Assembly: GCA_022651245.1 (NCBI GenBank)
Contig: JALCQM010000001.1
Location: forward strand, 1 to 64,000
Length of the DNA stretch: 64,000 bases
From: Lactobacillus sp.
GTDB lineage: Bacteria > Bacillota > Bacilli > Lactobacillales > Lactobacillaceae
Reading direction: 5' to 3'
Shown here: positions 3,714 through 43,240 of the stretch, in pieces
Layout: the number at the start of each line of letters is the position of its first letter
Position numbering within the stretch: position 1 is the first letter of the stretch
Program-made: the position numbers and the translations under genes
The notes under the pieces: model-generated
Told to the model about the DNA's origin: nothing
Database searches by the model: none
The model's input: the letters and a program-made list of their open reading frames with translations, nothing else

Positions 3714-3730
3714 CAGCGCAATTGAATACG

Positions 3731-3805
3731 CGTATCTGGGGTGCTATTTAGCTGAGATTATACCCATCGAACCTGATCCAGGTAATGCTGGCGCAGGAAG
3801 ATCAC
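3731..3805 (+). ncRNA. TPP riboswitch (THI element)
   Basis: The canonical THI-box blocks occur in order: GGGGTGC (3738-3744), GCTGAGA (3751-3757), ACCC then GAACCTGATC (3762-3778), and GGTAATGCTGGCGCAGGAA (3781-3799). P1 can close through ATCT (3734-3737) with AGAT (3799-3802). This aptamer binds thiamine pyrophosphate. It lies between a promoter and a hairpin with a T-run, upstream of thiW-thiM-thiE, so repression by premature termination when TPP is plentiful is the likely mode. Confidence 0.95.
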
Positions 3806-3807
3806 AT

Positions 3808-3835
3808 GCTGTGCGTTGCGCACGGCGTCTTTTTT
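3808..3835 (+). terminator. Riboswitch expression-platform terminator
   Basis: GCTGTGCG (3808-3815) pairs with CGCACGGC (3819-3826, one U-G pair), followed by a T-rich run to 3835. It immediately follows the TPP aptamer, so it is the probable ligand-dependent terminator. Confidence 0.65.
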
Positions 3836-26743: not shown

Positions 26744-27538
26744 ATGACGATAGAAGCCGTGATTTTCGACTGGGCCGGCACCACCATCGATTATGGTAGC
26801 CGGGCCCCCCTGTTAGCCTTCAAACGCACCTTCGCCGATTATGGCGTGGTGGTTTCTGAAGACGCGATCCGCAAAGATATGGGCTTAGACAAGCGGGTAC
26901 ACATCCGCAAATTACTCGGCGACCCAGATGTGGCCGCCTACTTTCAAGAGCGGCACCAACAATTAGCCACAGACGAGTTAGTCGCCGAGATCTTCGCCCG
27001 CTTTAAAGCTACCTTGCTCCAGATCCTTCCTGAAACCGCGACCTTAAAACCGGGCGTCGCGTCACTGATCGCCTTTTTGACCGCTAACCATATTCCGTAT
27101 GGCACCACCTCGGGTTACGATGCCGACATGCTGGCGACGCTGTTACCGCTAGTGGCCACGCGCGGCTACCGCCCGCAAGTCAACATCACGTCTGAGCAAA
27201 CCAACGGCAACGGCCGCCCTGATCCAGCCATGAACCGCCTGGCGATGCTGCAGCTTGGCGTGCACGACCCGGCGCGCGTCTTGATCGTTGGCGACACCGT
27301 CAATGACGTTTTGGCCGCGCAAAATGCCGGCGCCAACGCCGTCGGGATCATCGAAGGCGCCAACTTGCTAGCCTTATCGCAACAAGAATGGGACGCCTTA
27401 CCGGCCACGGCGCAACAACAACACCGCCAAGCGGTCCGCACCGCCTACGCCAACGCCGGCGCCGATGTGATCGTCAACTCGGCGGCGGATTTACTGGAAC
27501 TGATCAAACGCGAATGTGATTTGGAGGCGGCGCAATGA
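26744..27538 (+). CDS. phnX: Phosphonoacetaldehyde hydrolase (phosphonatase)
   Basis: A 264-residue HAD-superfamily enzyme that cleaves the C-P bond of phosphonoacetaldehyde to acetaldehyde and phosphate. The nucleophile motif is IFDWAGTTIDYGS (Asp12 region; DWAGTT is specific to phosphonatases). The Schiff-base lysine lies in KDMGLDKRVHIRKLL, within the cap domain. Motif 2 is GTTSGYDADM and motif 4 is ILIVGDTVNDVLAAQNAG. It overlaps phnW by 4 bases. With phnW it completes AEP degradation. Confidence 0.95.
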   Translation: MTIEAVIFDWAGTTIDYGSRAPLLAFKRTFADYGVVVSEDAIRKDMGLDKRVHIRKLLGDPDVAAYFQERHQQLATDELVAEIFARFKATLLQILPETATLKPGVASLIAFLTANHIPYGTTSGYDADMLATLLPLVATRGYRPQVNITSEQTNGNGRPDPAMNRLAMLQLGVHDPARVLIVGDTVNDVLAAQNAGANAVGIIEGANLLALSQQEWDALPATAQQQHRQAVRTAYANAGADVIVNSAADLLELIKRECDLEAAQ

Positions 27539-28641
27539 CACCATATTTACTTTTAACTCCTGGCCCTTTGACCACCACTGATAGCGTCAAGGCGGCGATG
27601 CAACACGATTATTCGACTTGGGATGACGACTATAACGCGATCACGCAGCGTTTGCGGGCGGGACTGTTACGTTTGGGGCAAGCAGGCAGTGACACTTACG
27701 CCAGCATTTTGCTTCAAGGCAGCGGCACCTATGCCGTTGAAGCCACCCTGCAAACCGCAATTCCTCGCACCGGCGCCAGCGTCTTGGTCGGCGTCAACGG
27801 CGCATACGGCCGGCGGATCAGCGAGATGCTTGATTACCTCGAGATCCCCCATGTGGTCGTATCCGGCGACGAAACCGCGCCGCTGGCCTTGGCGGATCTA
27901 CTGGCTGCGGCCCAAGCACACCCGGAGCTGACGCATTTTGCCATGATCCACTGCGAAACCACCACCGGCGTCTTGAACCCGATCGAAACCATCGTGCCGG
28001 CGATGCATGAGCGCGGCTTGATTACCATTGTCGACGCGATGTCCAGTTTTGCCGGCATCCCCATCGCAACGGAAATGCTCGGCATCGACTACTTGATCTC
28101 CAGCGCCAACAAGTGCTTGCAAGGCGTCCCAGGCTTCGGCTTCGTGCTCGCCAAGCGGACCACGATCGCCCAAACTAAAGGCAACGCCCGTAGCCTGTCG
28201 CTCGACTTGTACGAGCAGCTCGCCTGCATGGAAGCCTTCAACGGCAAGTGGCGCTTCACCTCACCGACGCATGTGGTACTTGCCGCCGCGCAAGCCCTCG
28301 ATGAACTGATCGCAGAAGGCGGCGTGGCGGCGCGGTACCACCGTTACCGCGAGTGCCAGCACCTGTTGGCGACGGGGATGCAAGAACTCGGCTTTGACCG
28401 CATCGTGGCCCCAGCCGATCAAAGCCCGATCATCACCAGCTTCGCCTACCCAACCCCAGACTTCGATTTTCCCGCGTTTTACAACGCCTTAAAAGCGCGC
28501 GGTTTCGTGATCTACCCGGGGAAAGTGGCCGCGTTGCCAAGTTTCCGCATTGGTAACATCGGCGACCTCAACACCACCGATATCCAAGCGTTACTCGCCG
28601 CGATCCAAGTCGTTCAGCAAACGCTGACCGTGAGCGCGTAA
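27535..28641 (+). CDS. phnW: 2-aminoethylphosphonate--pyruvate transaminase
   Basis: A 368-residue class-V PLP aminotransferase. The N-terminus YLLLTPGPLTTTDSVKAAMQ is the family hallmark, followed by HDYSTWDDDYNAI. The PLP lysine is in ISSANKCLQGVPGFGFVLAK, and IVDAMSSFAGIP holds the PLP-ring Asp. It converts AEP plus pyruvate to phosphonoacetaldehyde plus alanine. It ends the operon before a strong terminator. Confidence 0.95.
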   Translation: MTPYLLLTPGPLTTTDSVKAAMQHDYSTWDDDYNAITQRLRAGLLRLGQAGSDTYASILLQGSGTYAVEATLQTAIPRTGASVLVGVNGAYGRRISEMLDYLEIPHVVVSGDETAPLALADLLAAAQAHPELTHFAMIHCETTTGVLNPIETIVPAMHERGLITIVDAMSSFAGIPIATEMLGIDYLISSANKCLQGVPGFGFVLAKRTTIAQTKGNARSLSLDLYEQLACMEAFNGKWRFTSPTHVVLAAAQALDELIAEGGVAARYHRYRECQHLLATGMQELGFDRIVAPADQSPIITSFAYPTPDFDFPAFYNALKARGFVIYPGKVAALPSFRIGNIGDLNTTDIQALLAAIQVVQQTLTVSA

Positions 28642-31960: not shown

Positions 31961-33469
31961 TCACAGACTTTTTTCAACTCGCTCTGAAGCCGCCGTGGGC
32001 GCGTAAAAAGCCTGGACTTGTTCAACGTCGTCGAAATGGTGCTTGGTCGTGCCGATGATCTGATAGTCCTCATGGCCCTTGCCGGCAATCAAGACCACAT
32101 CGCCAGCCTGCGCCTGTCCCAACGCATAGGCGATCGCCTGGCGCCGATCGCTCAAGCGCGTGTACGTTGCCGGGTCCAGGCCCGCCACCATCTGGTCGAT
32201 GATCGCTTCCGGATCTTCGGTACGCGGATTGTCGGCAGTGAAAATCGGATCGGTCGCCTGTTGCCATGCAATGGTCGCCATTTGCGGGCGCTTTTCGGCG
32301 TCGCGATCGCCACCACAGCCGACGACGCAAAACACGCGGCGCTTGGCAAAGGCGGTAATCGTCTGCAAGACATTCGCCAAGCCGTCTGGCGTGTGGGCAT
32401 AATCCACGATTACTGTGGCATTCACCGGCGTGGGCACGACTTGAAAACGGCCTGGCACGCCAGCCGCGCTTTCTAGCGCGCGAATGATCAGGCGTGGGGA
32501 CAAGCCGTGCACATAGGTGGCGCCAAAAGCCGCCAAGGCGTTGGCAACATTGAACGCCCCCATCAACTGTAAGTGCACCGGATAGCGGTGCCCAGCGATG
32601 GTGAGGAAAAACCGGGTGCCATCCGGGCCAACTTGGATGTCGCGGGCTTGTAAGTCCCCGCGGCCCTTGATCCCATAAGTCAGCACGTTGGCCGCCGTGC
32701 GGTCGAGCAAGCGGCGGCCATAGGGATCATCGATGTTGATCACCGCAGACTTCACCTTCCGGCCGTGATGGTAGGTATTGCCGAGTTGTTCAAACAACAA
32801 CGCCTTGGCTTCAAAATACGCCTCGAACGTGTGGTGATAATCGAGGTGGTCTTCGGTCAAGTTGGTGAATACCGCCGTGTCAAAATCGATCCCGCGCACC
32901 CGCCCTTGGGCCAAGCCGATCGACGAGACCTCCATTGCGCAAGCCTTTTTCCCTGCGGCCAACATCTCGTGCAAATACACTTGGTTAGTGTAACTATCAG
33001 GGGTCGTGTTCACCGCGGCGTGCGTTTCTTGGCCACCGGTAGCATACAGCGTGCCGATCACGCCGCAGTCGCGCTTCGCTGCCGCCAAGATTCGAGCGAT
33101 CAAGTGCGTCACGGTCGTCTTCCCGTTGGTGCCAGTGACGCCGAACATTTTCAGTTCAGCGCTCGGGTCGCCGTAAAACACAACGCTCAGTTGCGCCAAG
33201 GCTTGGTGCGTATCCGGTACCTGCACGATCATCGCCCCGCTAGCGGCAACGGGCTGCTGGACCACGACCAACACTGCGCCCTTGGCGATCGCCTCTTGGA
33301 CATGGGCGTGGCCGTCAAAATGCTGGCCTTTGATCGCGACAAAACACCCACCTGGTTGCACCTGCCGCGTATCCGGCGTCAGGCTGGTCACCACCAGCTT
33401 CTCCGTAGCCAGGCGCTGGCGGGTTTCTTGATCAAGATTTAATAACGACGCACACTCACTGATTCGCAT
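31961..33469 (-). CDS. murE: UDP-N-acetylmuramyl-tripeptide synthetase
   Basis: A 502-residue Mur ligase that adds the third amino acid to the peptidoglycan stem peptide. Motifs: MFGVTGTNGKTTVTHLIARI (ATP loop), TTPDSYTNQVYLHEML, MEVSSIGLAQGRVRGIDFD, NLTEDHLDYHHTFEAYFEAK, VDYAHTPDGLANVL, and FTADNPRTEDPEAIIDQM. The DNPR motif is associated with meso-diaminopimelate specificity in MurE. The ATG at 33469 has GGAAGG about 9 bases upstream; ATG 33478 is possible. Its promoter and first codons are duplicated at 37863-38044. The full-length copy here appears intact. Confidence 0.92.
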   Translation of the reverse strand: MRISECASLLNLDQETRQRLATEKLVVTSLTPDTRQVQPGGCFVAIKGQHFDGHAHVQEAIAKGAVLVVVQQPVAASGAMIVQVPDTHQALAQLSVVFYGDPSAELKMFGVTGTNGKTTVTHLIARILAAAKRDCGVIGTLYATGGQETHAAVNTTPDSYTNQVYLHEMLAAGKKACAMEVSSIGLAQGRVRGIDFDTAVFTNLTEDHLDYHHTFEAYFEAKALLFEQLGNTYHHGRKVKSAVINIDDPYGRRLLDRTAANVLTYGIKGRGDLQARDIQVGPDGTRFFLTIAGHRYPVHLQLMGAFNVANALAAFGATYVHGLSPRLIIRALESAAGVPGRFQVVPTPVNATVIVDYAHTPDGLANVLQTITAFAKRRVFCVVGCGGDRDAEKRPQMATIAWQQATDPIFTADNPRTEDPEAIIDQMVAGLDPATYTRLSDRRQAIAYALGQAQAGDVVLIAGKGHEDYQIIGTTKHHFDDVEQVQAFYAPTAASERVEKSL

Positions 33470-33551
33470 CACAACCATCCTTCCTTTTGTTCTCAATCAG
33501 TATCGCGAAGCAACCATAAAATTGCCTTAAATGGTGGCGAGTGTGCTACAA
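33370..33551. repeat. 182-bp direct repeat, copy A (murE promoter and first codons)
   Basis: This stretch covers the first 33 codons of murE plus about 80 bp upstream. It matches 37863-38044 over 182 bp in the same orientation with four mismatches that I can count. Identity stops at CTACAA, followed by GATTAG here and TATGAT in copy B. It marks the left border of the PTS cassette. Confidence 0.95.
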
Positions 33552-33821
33552 GATTAGACGAAGACAGCCCAATAACCGCAAATGAAAATATTTGACTAGT
33601 TTAGGCGCAGAACTATTTTTCAGAATACATTCACCAATTTCAGATATCGGTATAGTCCGATTTTTAATCGGCTTTGTTCACACGCAATACTCGTAAGTCT
33701 CTTCAGCTACTACCCCTAACGATTATCAAACTTAATAATGAGCTGATTCCAAACGCTTATACGGTCTACCTCAAACGAAAATAATAACAGGATATAATCA
33801 TAGATAATATTATTGATATGA

Positions 33822-37862: not shown

Positions 37863-38044
37863 TATCCGGCGTCAGGCTGGTCACCACCAGCTTCTCCGTA
37901 GCCAGGCGCTGGCGGGTCTGTTGATCAAGATTTAATAACGACGCACACTCACTGATTCGCATCACAAACATCCTTCCTTTTGTTCTCAATCGGTATCGCG
38001 AAGCAACCATAAAATTGCCTTAAATGGTGGCGAGTGTGCTACAA
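37863..38044 (-). pseudogene. murE: Truncated duplicate of murE 5' end (direct repeat copy B)
   Basis: On the minus strand this carries the murE ribosome site and codons for MRISECASLLNLDQQTRQRL and onward, then breaks off after about 33 codons into the cassette terminator. It is the second copy of the 182-bp repeat (33370-33551), with four mismatches. It also retains the plus-strand promoter element TACAAT for the following small gene. The encoded fragment cannot be a functional ligase. Confidence 0.93.
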
Positions 38045-38068
38045 TATGATTGAAGGGAGCGGTTGCAT

Positions 38069-38322: not shown

Positions 38323-38420
38323 TGTTTGACCACTGCCGGCGGTTCGGTTCCTTTCTCGTCAACATGCGACGCCCTAGTGGTGAGCGAATCTCTTAATTTG
38401 TAACATGCGTCTTCAAGAAT

Positions 38421-38470
38421 ACAAAAATAATGCCGTTACACCGACGACAGAATCGCGGTGTGGCGGCATT
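38421..38470 (-). terminator. Terminator of the candidate ncRNA
   Basis: On the minus strand AATGCCG-ACACCG pairs with CGGTGT-CGGCATT, with a small 2x2 internal loop, and then ATTTTTGT follows. The plus-strand side lacks a T-run, so it acts leftward. Confidence 0.75.
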
Positions 38471-39041
38471 CTCAATGGCTAATTTATAAGCAAAAATCGC
38501 ACTGAACTAAGGTGACCCCATCCCGAAAAATTGGAGGCCGAAGTCTATGTCCATTCACGCGGGTGAACGCCCCGCCTACTAATCTTACAGTCGTTAGCAG
38601 TGCAGGTGATCGGTGGTCGTAAAACGGTCGGGCCAGATTCTTACCTCTAGCGTGCGGCGTCACCGTCAATGCGGGAAGCAGGGATTCTTATCGCCATCGA
38701 CGCTGAGGACCTTCTCGCTGCCGGATTAAGGGCTAAGCGAACATCGGTGATATGGCGTACTGGGCGCAATTGAAGCGTGCTGTGGCATCGGGGTGAATCT
38801 ATATAGGACACGGTAGACAATGGAGTGGCAGCATTTCGGTGCGCCGCTTCTATGGAGCCCGCGTGAGCCGAGAAGGAGCATGTCCTGATTCTCGATCTCG
38901 ACGGGTACAACCCAGGAAATCCTGGGCGACTCAGCCAGTGTTTAGGCACCCCCGTGACTAACGTTGACACCAGCACCATGAGCAAACTCATGGCCCGACC
39001 TGAGTGCGGCGGTCGTCCAACTCGCCAGCTTGTGATCGGTA
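38421..39041 (-). ncRNA. Candidate large structured non-coding RNA (about 0.6 kb)
   Basis: This minus-strand unit has a promoter at its right end and a terminator at its left end, but no credible ORF: the open frames are short, arginine-rich and without ribosome sites. Several short-loop hairpins are visible, at 38976-38993 (CCATGAG/CTCATGG, 4-nt loop), 38911-38926 (CCCAGG/CCTGGG, 4-nt loop), 38553-38568 (GTTCAC/GTGAAT on the transcript, 4-nt loop) and 38996-39015 (CGACC/GGTCG). Size, ornate folding and host group recall the ROOL class of large RNAs known from lactobacilli, but I cannot confirm family membership. A decayed IS is the alternative, though I see no transposase residue pattern. 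Bases 38323-38420 show nothing. Confidence 0.5.
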
Positions 39042-39046
39042 ATTGT

Positions 39047-39074
39047 ATTATACCCCGATTTTTTGAAAGCGCAA
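39047..39074 (-). promoter_or_regulatory. Promoter of the candidate ncRNA
   Basis: On the minus strand TTGCGC (39074-39069) and a perfect TATAAT (39052-39047) are separated by 16 bp. The expected start is near 39040. Confidence 0.65.
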
Positions 39075-39107
39075 CCATTTATTTAGCATGTGCTCAAAAT
39101 CCCCTTG

Positions 39108-40713: not shown

Positions 40714-41379
40714 ATGTCAACATATACCACACCAAAGCGGCGCCTCGTCTTAGGGCTCGTCGCCTTGGCCACGACAATGGGACTCGTGGGCTGCGGGAGC
40801 CAAAGCACGCTGTCCAAAGAACAGGCGACGACCAAGATCCGGTCCGCGCAAACCACCAAGGCGGCCTTAGCGACCCGCACCGACAAAGCAACAGCAAAGG
40901 CCAAGAAACTCAAGGTCCAAAAGGCCCTATTGTTGGCCGAAGTTGCCAAAGGCAAAAAGGCGCAAACCAAGGCCGAAAGTGATCGCGACGCCACCAGCAG
41001 CTCGGTTGCAGCGTCTTCAAGCAAAGCCGCAGTGGCCGCCAGTCAAGCGGCTAGCGCCAGTGCAGCCGCTGCCTCTAGCCGCGCGGTTGCGGCCAGCCAG
41101 TCGCAAGCTGCCGCCGCCAGTCAAGCAGCCGCAGCCGCCAGCCAAGCGGCCAGTGCCAGTCAGGCTGCGGCAGCCCAAGCCACAACCGCTGGCGGTACCG
41201 GGGCAACTAACGGTGGGGATCTGAACACCGCGGCGACCGGCCAGATTGTCGGCAATAAGAACTCGAAGATCTATCATGTGCCCGGCCAAGCCGGCTACAA
41301 CATGAACTCAGCCAATGCCGTGTATTTCAATTCGGAAGCCGAAGCGCAAGCAGCCGGTTACCGCAAGTCGTTACGCTAG
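40714..41379 (+). CDS. Lipoprotein with Ala-rich coiled linker and C-terminal sunset-type domain
   Basis: A 221-residue predicted lipoprotein. Signal peptide with lipobox LVGC (Cys at about 27). Residues about 30-165 are a Lys/Ala/Ser/Gln-rich low-complexity helical stretch. The C-terminal 45 residues contain GQIVGNKNSKIYHVPGQAGY and FNSEAEAQAAGYRKS, the small sunset/Ada-like module that often accompanies secreted nucleases and may bind metal or DNA. TGGAGGGG lies upstream of the ATG. It is 9 bases before a DNA/RNA nuclease gene with a similar lipoprotein start. Confidence 0.8.
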   Translation: MSTYTTPKRRLVLGLVALATTMGLVGCGSQSTLSKEQATTKIRSAQTTKAALATRTDKATAKAKKLKVQKALLLAEVAKGKKAQTKAESDRDATSSSVAASSSKAAVAASQAASASAAAASSRAVAASQSQAAAASQAAAAASQAASASQAAAAQATTAGGTGATNGGDLNTAATGQIVGNKNSKIYHVPGQAGYNMNSANAVYFNSEAEAQAAGYRKSLR

Positions 41380-41388
41380 GAGGCCCTG

Positions 41389-42270
41389 ATGAAAAAATTA
41401 CTGACCTTACTCGTCACCAGCGCCGCCTTACTGCTAGCTGCCGGTTGCGGCCAACAAAGCGACCAAGCGACAAAAACGCAACAAAGCCGCCTGACCGCTT
41501 TGACCAAGGCCAACAAGGCCACGGCCAAAGCCGTCAGCAGCAAAGAAAGCGCCAACCGCAAAACAGCCGCCAAGATCAGCAGCTTACAAGCAGCGCTGAA
41601 CAGCCAAAACCAGGCCGCAGAAGACGCTAAAAGTGACGCCAACGAACTCGCCGGCACCAAAACTACCGCCAAGTCAACGGCGACAGACACCAGCGCGACC
41701 TTAGCGGCCAAAGATTACAGCGGCCAACAAGAAATCACCGTCAACGGCGACAAGCCCGGCTTTTCTGCCAGTGAACTCAGCACCACCGCTGGGGCCTGGG
41801 AACGCTATAGCGACCTCGACGGCCACAATCGGGCAACAGACGCCAATGCGCTGCTCAATCAATCCTTGATGCCGACCAGCAAACGCGAGCCCCTTACCTG
41901 GGACCCGACCGGCTGGCATAATCGCCGCACCGCTCATGGTTGGCTGTACAACCGCAGCCACTTGATTGGTTTCCAATTATCGGGCGAAAATAATAACCCG
42001 AAGAACCTGATCACCGGCACTCAGTCGCTGAATAACCCGTTGATGCTGGCACACGAAATGGACATCGCCACATACCTCAAAGGCGATGCCAAACGCTACG
42101 TCCGCTACGAAGTACGCCCGATTTTCCGCGGCACTGAACTCGTCGCCCGCGGCGTGCAAATGCGCGCCCAAAGTATCGGCGACAACACGATCAGCTTCAA
42201 CGTCTACATCTTCAACATCGAGTCCGGTTACACGATCGACTACGCGACCGGCACCAGCACCGCGAGTTAA
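41389..42270 (+). CDS. Membrane-anchored DNA/RNA non-specific endonuclease (DNA-entry nuclease type)
   Basis: A 293-residue lipoprotein. Lipobox LAAGC (Cys20), coiled linker about 25-90, then the nuclease domain from about 125. NRSHLIGFQLSGENNNPKNL contains the beta-beta-alpha-metal catalytic motif with His (DRGH-type, here NRSH), and the metal-ligand Asn is in ITGTQSLNNPLM. It resembles the EndA/NucA-like nucleases of competent Firmicutes, which degrade extracellular or incoming DNA. It overlaps functionally with the sunset lipoprotein upstream, 9 bases away. AGGAGG precedes the ATG. Confidence 0.88.
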   Translation: MKKLLTLLVTSAALLLAAGCGQQSDQATKTQQSRLTALTKANKATAKAVSSKESANRKTAAKISSLQAALNSQNQAAEDAKSDANELAGTKTTAKSTATDTSATLAAKDYSGQQEITVNGDKPGFSASELSTTAGAWERYSDLDGHNRATDANALLNQSLMPTSKREPLTWDPTGWHNRRTAHGWLYNRSHLIGFQLSGENNNPKNLITGTQSLNNPLMLAHEMDIATYLKGDAKRYVRYEVRPIFRGTELVARGVQMRAQSIGDNTISFNVYIFNIESGYTIDYATGTSTAS

Positions 42271-43098: not shown

Positions 43099-43240
43099 GC
43101 TCCGCTCTGGTTTCTTCGTCGAGCTGCGCAAGCCAACGCAATTGCGTGTAAGTCGTCCCGGTCCCGCCGCGTACCGCGACGCACCCAGGCCGCCTTACAC
43201 ACATTGCTATAACCGGCTTGCTCCGCTCTGGTTTTCTTCG
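43099..43240. repeat. Pair of 20/21-bp direct repeats in a non-coding gap
   Basis: GCTCCGCTCTGGTTTCTTCG (43099-43118) recurs at 43220-43240 with one extra T in the T-run. Both lie in the 262-bp gap between the phosphatase and the small membrane gene. No ORF with a ribosome site is present. Confidence 0.7.

Follow-up and report, generated by a model that had tools for sequence, protein, structure and literature searches.

A dispersed DNA unit of 694 bp, found in a genome that probably belongs to Lacticaseibacillus, makes a good candidate for a family of noncoding RNA genes that is new and confined to one species; the models run did not identify it as a known giant RNA. One complete copy lies on the minus strand of the window, the whole stretch of 64,000 nucleotides that was analysed. 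The chances that the unit carries a species-restricted, multi-copy noncoding RNA gene are considered about even. The RNA gene is favoured by the presence of at least five copies with sharp ends, by a gap between two genes that measures 841 bp here and about 58 bp in two relatives, and by the lack of a coding signal. The uneven variation among copies (2 of 118 columns in a conserved core against 19 of 35 in a linker), the restricted range and a cre-like site in both full copies point in the same direction, as does a second family in the same genus, family B, which shows the same build with a constant body and a varying 3' linker. Against the RNA gene stand a poor -35 box, a body that folds barely below its shuffles, and almost no compensated pairs. 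A conserved tail of 36 bp beyond the predicted transcript suits a DNA element equally, and just two copies are complete, the other three being cut at contig ends.

The unit extends on the minus strand from its 5' end at 39080 to 38387 and is larger than the span first noted. In a search of 41 genomes it was found at no fewer than five places in its own genome, and elsewhere there was just a 39-bp match in G009. The copies in the window (C1) and in C16 are complete. Those in C21, C32 and C5 are each truncated at a contig end, so that the copy number of five is a lower bound. C16 is 93% identical to the window copy over the full length, and the alignment of the two begins sharply at AAATGG and stops sharply at AGAGATT, with unrelated flanks; these limits define the unit as 38387..39080. 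The 3' end is common to all five copies. In C21 and C5 the similarity extends past it because both run into an adjoining repeat. The tail of 36 bp located 3' of the terminator (38387..38422) is conserved in all five copies, though it falls outside the predicted transcript.

The genomic setting of the copies was also compared. The gap from an MFS transporter gene to a 67-codon gene, counted on the sequence, is 841 bp in the window versus approximately 58 bp in G013 and G007, relatives in which the MFS protein is 66% identical. The closest relative, G002 (86%), has a truncated MFS gene next to a contig end, and the short gap is seen only in other species. On the 3' side the closest gene is, by eye, convergent in four of the five copies (window, C21, C32 and C5) and co-directional in C16, where the ORF on the 3' side has no Pfam match. 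Genes adjoining the copies include those for the MFS transporter, a 6-O-methylguanine DNA methyltransferase, a LuxR-type response regulator and a metallophosphoesterase. Those neighbours that could be assigned to a family are all cellular genes, and three nearby genes of the window match phrog families of unknown function. No tRNA gene was detected in the window or in four flank loci of the copies.

Promoter-like and terminator-like sites sit just within the unit ends, and it is this bracket inside the ends of a conserved repeat that lifts the unit above chance. The TTGCGC-N16-TATAAT site described in the initial annotation is present on the minus strand. Its -10 box TATAAT (39047..39052) is identical in C16 and would place the start of the RNA near 39040, and TTGCGC (39069..39074) stands at a spacing of 16 bases from it. 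This -35-like box is poor; it reads TTTCGC in the second full copy and fits just 3 of 6 consensus bases, for which reason the promoter scan does not include it, and the promoter is regarded as a candidate. Overlapping the -35 is a cre-like site for CcpA, TTGAAAGCGCAACCAT (39063..39078), which agrees at 15 of 16 positions with the cre consensus. The corresponding site of C16 likewise agrees at 15 of 16. Among 4000 stretches of 45 bp drawn at random from the window, 20 equalled or beat this score; the site was noticed after the fact. At the other end, the two-part hairpin and T-run reported earlier were recovered at 38423-38470 of the minus strand: an inverted repeat (38429..38470), in part on the terminator scan list, is followed by a run of five T (38423..38427). 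Terminator-type hairpins like this one also end other genes of the same genome. The match in G009 (L002:1500-1540) is a promoter-like stretch upstream of an unrelated small ORF, 85% identical to the unit promoter over 39 bp and bearing a cre-like site of 15/16. It was rejected as a copy of the unit.

Variation among the five copies is concentrated in one part of the unit. A core of 118 nt (38505..38622, minus strand) has two variable columns, and the linker between core and terminator (38470..38504, minus strand), whose final base also opens the hairpin, is hypervariable, with 19 of its 35 columns changed. Over all 118 columns 3' of the core, 33 vary. Fisher tests gave p values of 8e-13 for core versus linker and 4e-9 for core versus everything 3' of it, figures that take columns as independent, which those of related copies are not. 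Two linker types can be distinguished, one in C16 and C32 and the other in the window, C21 and C5.

The main rival to the RNA gene is a plain mobile DNA element, non-autonomous and MITE-like, in which promoter and terminator would be incidental and conservation would reflect recent spread together with a transposase recognising the ends in trans. This is possible, if well short of probable. Such an element would account for the sharp ends, for an insertion relative to G007 and G013 and for the tail conserved beyond the predicted transcript, and by eye some 15 nt at the two ends of the unit look loosely similar in inverted orientation. However, no clear terminal inverted repeats or target duplications, as expected of MITEs and insertion elements, were seen by eye in the two complete copies. 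Elsewhere in the genome the 3' end recurs only as matches of 14 and 17 bases (E above 1) and the 5' part only as a match of 16 bases (E 0.9), and the substitutions are strongly uneven rather than spread. The proximity of the copies to a second repeat also speaks for a mobile element. This repeat is a hairpin of about 125 nt with 71 matches in 38 clusters of the genome, often in short tandem arrays, and it occurs in the window at 43099-43238. Its stems change on both sides between units (by eye), and it was absent from 104 loci taken as other genomes. None of the five copies of the unit is more than about 4.1 kb away from a cluster, and C21 and C5 directly adjoin one. The probability that a random point falls as close is about 0.115, which gives about 2e-5 for five copies, or 2e-4 if C21 and C5 are counted once, in a calculation made after the fact.

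It is improbable that the unit is the remnant of a decayed gene or transposase that had died before it was copied. The unit has long broken frames on both strands, as such a remnant would, and minus-strand ORFs of 143 and 61 codons exist in the stretch, a correction to the earlier annotation. The start of the 143-codon ORF lies upstream of the -10 box, and in C16 stops and a frameshift interrupt the frame. The longest frame open in both full copies, on either strand, measures 67 codons from stop to stop and contains the 61-codon ORF, in which four variable columns are synonymous and four non-synonymous. A protein or transposase remnant, which the initial annotation had named as grounds for refutation, was not detected among the frames tried: six frames gave no match in Pfam at E up to 10, five gave none in NCBIfam, and two gave none by tblastn against plasmids. 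The unit has no protein frame carrying a coding signal.

The large, ornate RNA that had been suggested for this stretch gains little from folding. The 617-nt stretch has a folding z of -3.0 (20 shuffles), and the body without linker and terminator reaches -1.16 in the window and -1.71 in C16. With the terminator included, the whole unit scores -2.25 (opposite strand -2.06) and C16 -2.42 (opposite strand -2.19), so both strands of the full-length units score alike. Among the cut copies with terminator, the values are -1.96 for C21 (opposite strand -2.10), -4.01 for C32 (-3.51) and -4.63 for C5 (-2.79). Since C32 and C5 hold the 3' part with the terminator and score -4.0 and -4.6, the 3' part is the one that folds better. 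The several hairpins with 4-nt loops reported before are, beyond the terminator, not clearly above chance. Compensatory changes, also proposed as a check, are few: of the 88 pairs in the five-copy consensus fold, 2 are doubly compensated, both in the linker, and the covariation term of +2.99 goes against this fold, in copies too similar to each other to settle the structure. An ornate fold is therefore unsupported.

ROOL RNA (RF03087) is about 0.6 kb long, lacks ORFs and is known in lactobacilli; GOLLD is a large ORF-less RNA of the Lactobacillales. The unit resembles both in being ORF-less, GOLLD in its occurrence in this order, and ROOL in its size of about 0.6 kb and its presence in lactobacilli. 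Of the proposal that the unit is a divergent ROOL or a new class, what is supported is an ORF-less, dispersed unit with promoter-like and terminator-like ends, located next to a recombination scar. Searched with the whole Rfam library at E up to 10, the stretch gave only psbT-asRNA (E 5.5) and ceN61 (E 9.7), each scoring well under its cut-off. At E up to 1, the loci of all five copies gave three sub-threshold matches, all in the flanks and none within the copies. The ROOL model matched none of four genomes, nor any of 14 control genomes, and because the controls were silent too, this whole-genome result alone proves little. That the unit is a divergent form of ROOL, GOLLD or some large RNA already described is thus rejected, within the reach of the Rfam models, as exceedingly unlikely, despite the length of about 610 nt, the missing ORFs and the lactobacillar host, since no Rfam large-RNA family was matched by the unit or its copies and tRNA genes are absent from the window and the four flank loci. 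The unit further differs from ROOL in its dispersed copies and in showing no sign of an ornate fold, and from GOLLD in being shorter than 800 nt. ROOL is encoded in phages and prophages, often near tRNA islands, in the account of PMC12286853. This setting, as given there, differs from that of the unit, which has no phage match, no pattern in viral_contigs and, among neighbours of known family, cellular genes.

The unit has a narrow range. BLAST against 397 genomes of the family found the unit's own genome and one promoter-like match of 35 bp in G009, in a search listing the best two candidates per genome, which recovered 2 of the 5 own copies and is not exhaustive. A covariance model of the unit without the terminator (R3) was run against the same number of genomes, with the best six candidates per genome listed under strict filters. 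It matched the own genome only and recovered all five copies. Distant BLAST with the unit found no relatives in plasmids and phages. Exact core patterns had no match in viral_contigs, nor was one found in genome_contigs, in exact-pattern collections from which records of the own species may be absent. A further model of the unit, R1, gave 21 matches in the own genome and 12 outside it among 30 genomes of the genus. Five of the 21 are the copies, eight further loci that were examined are all gene-end hairpins, and a further two come from the copies' own terminators read on the opposite strand. Six of the 12 matches in other genomes were examined: four proved to be hairpins at gene ends, and those in L016 and L023 fall on the margin of family B copies. 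One match to the unit model, in L049 (18 bits, E 1.4e-4), was discarded as a local hairpin with 138 model positions skipped. Within the window, positions 27454-27548 gave a 10-bit match to the unit model (E 0.08).

Family B was first met through two R1 matches in G007, at the edge of another ORF-less repeat. The two genomes in which it occurs are most likely those of L. manihotivorans (G007) and, by elimination, L. porcinae (G013). BLAST among the 30 genomes of the genus gave 23 matches in G007, 21 in G013 and none in the other 28. Among the best 21 of 48 and 42 candidates, respectively, at least about 21 places were counted in each genome, several of them partial. An exact family B pattern in genome_contigs was found at 17 places of L. 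porcinae, 15 of L. manihotivorans and one of a Verrucomicrobia MAG. The copies (L047 to L076, e.g., L053:1499-1892) represent an ORF-less RNA candidate of about 400 nt. Most of them carry CTTGACA-like and TATCAT-like boxes at a fixed distance (by eye), and a 3' hairpin region is present in all 30 aligned copies. Within G013 the bodies are near-identical and the promoters and 3' linkers differ. A family B model (R2) match in G078 (1.4e-5) was judged to be due to chance, with overlapping repetitive frames at that place. The copy in L023 is about 150 bp from a tRNA gene.

The structure of family B was derived from 21 of the 30 aligned copies. The consensus has 97 pairs, 24 of them doubly compensated, with 98.5% of cells paired. 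None of 500 shuffles reached the count of doubly changed pairs, and the pair-type count did not stand above the shuffles, 187 of the 500 attaining it. With slid structures 34 to 41% was paired, a control that is biased because the family B fold was derived from these same sequences. In Rfam, two copies gave only sub-threshold HOTAIRM1_3 (19 bits, cut-off 37, E 0.49), and two further copies had no match at E up to 10. The family B model did not match the window, and the unit model gave no convincing match in 14 loci holding family B copies. Unit and family B share the genus, the dispersed and ORF-less nature, the constant body, the variable 3' linker and the 3' hairpin. Family B differs in its length of about 400 nt, its at least about 21 places per genome and its strong covariation. 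No published account of either was found in titles and abstracts covering a small share of possibly many hundred papers.

The nearest known kind of unit appears to be the Lactobacillus plantarum supermotifs (LPSMs, Wels et al. 2009), matched by description and not by sequence. As outlined in PMC5643018, these are long intergenic noncoding units of 800 to 1000 nt, present in many copies, species-specific and absent from other Lactobacillus species, cruciform, transcribed and stable, with unknown function. Judged by this outline, the unit is alike in being intergenic, in having five or more dispersed copies and in being limited to its own genome among 397 by R3. It differs in its length of 694 bp, with a predicted RNA of about 610 nt. 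For its body, no convincing fold, cruciform or other, was seen (z -1.16 and -1.71; 2 of 88 pairs compensated). Compared with the LPSMs as presented there, the unit has one promoter-like and one cre-like site, and its transcription is predicted whereas that of the LPSMs is reported.

If the unit is an RNA gene, RNA polymerase would start near 39040 on the minus strand, transcribe about 610 nt and stop at the T-run. On preferred sugars, transcription would probably be held down by CcpA sitting on the cre-like site that covers the -35. The RNA would act in trans through its core, with its dosage supplied from several loci. The bodies of the copies would be kept alike by selection or gene conversion, and linker and terminator would drift. 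A growth-phase or carbon-responsive riboregulator is the likeliest role, though doubtful in itself, function being the least certain step. We tentatively suggest that the unit founds a new RNA family and that, together with family B and the LPSMs, it may reflect a tendency of lactobacilli to evolve repeatedly their own multi-copy long RNA genes in each species group, with a body kept uniform like that of rRNA genes and, in this case, under carbon catabolite control. The multi-copy, species-restricted long RNAs of lactobacilli have no known function in the account of PMC5643018. Among them, the unit would be compact, conserved and probably subject to a carbon-control switch, in a harmless genus. 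Family B, which is supported by covariation and was counted at about 21 or more places in both of its species, is a far better object for work on structure and function.

Other features of the window were also recorded. The recombination scar that had been placed next to the unit corresponds to a direct repeat of 185 bp, 97% identical, at 33370-33554 and 37863-38047, and is a duplication or integration scar. The repeat carries the start of a Mur-ligase-like gene (by eye), and its two copies flank a group of PRD antiterminator, PTS and DUF7916 genes. At 40714-42270, a lipoprotein-like gene and a nuclease-like gene both match phrog families of unknown function; the latter resembles a secreted DNA-entry nuclease in its motifs. 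A TPP riboswitch was identified at 3727-3816 with 66.8 bits.
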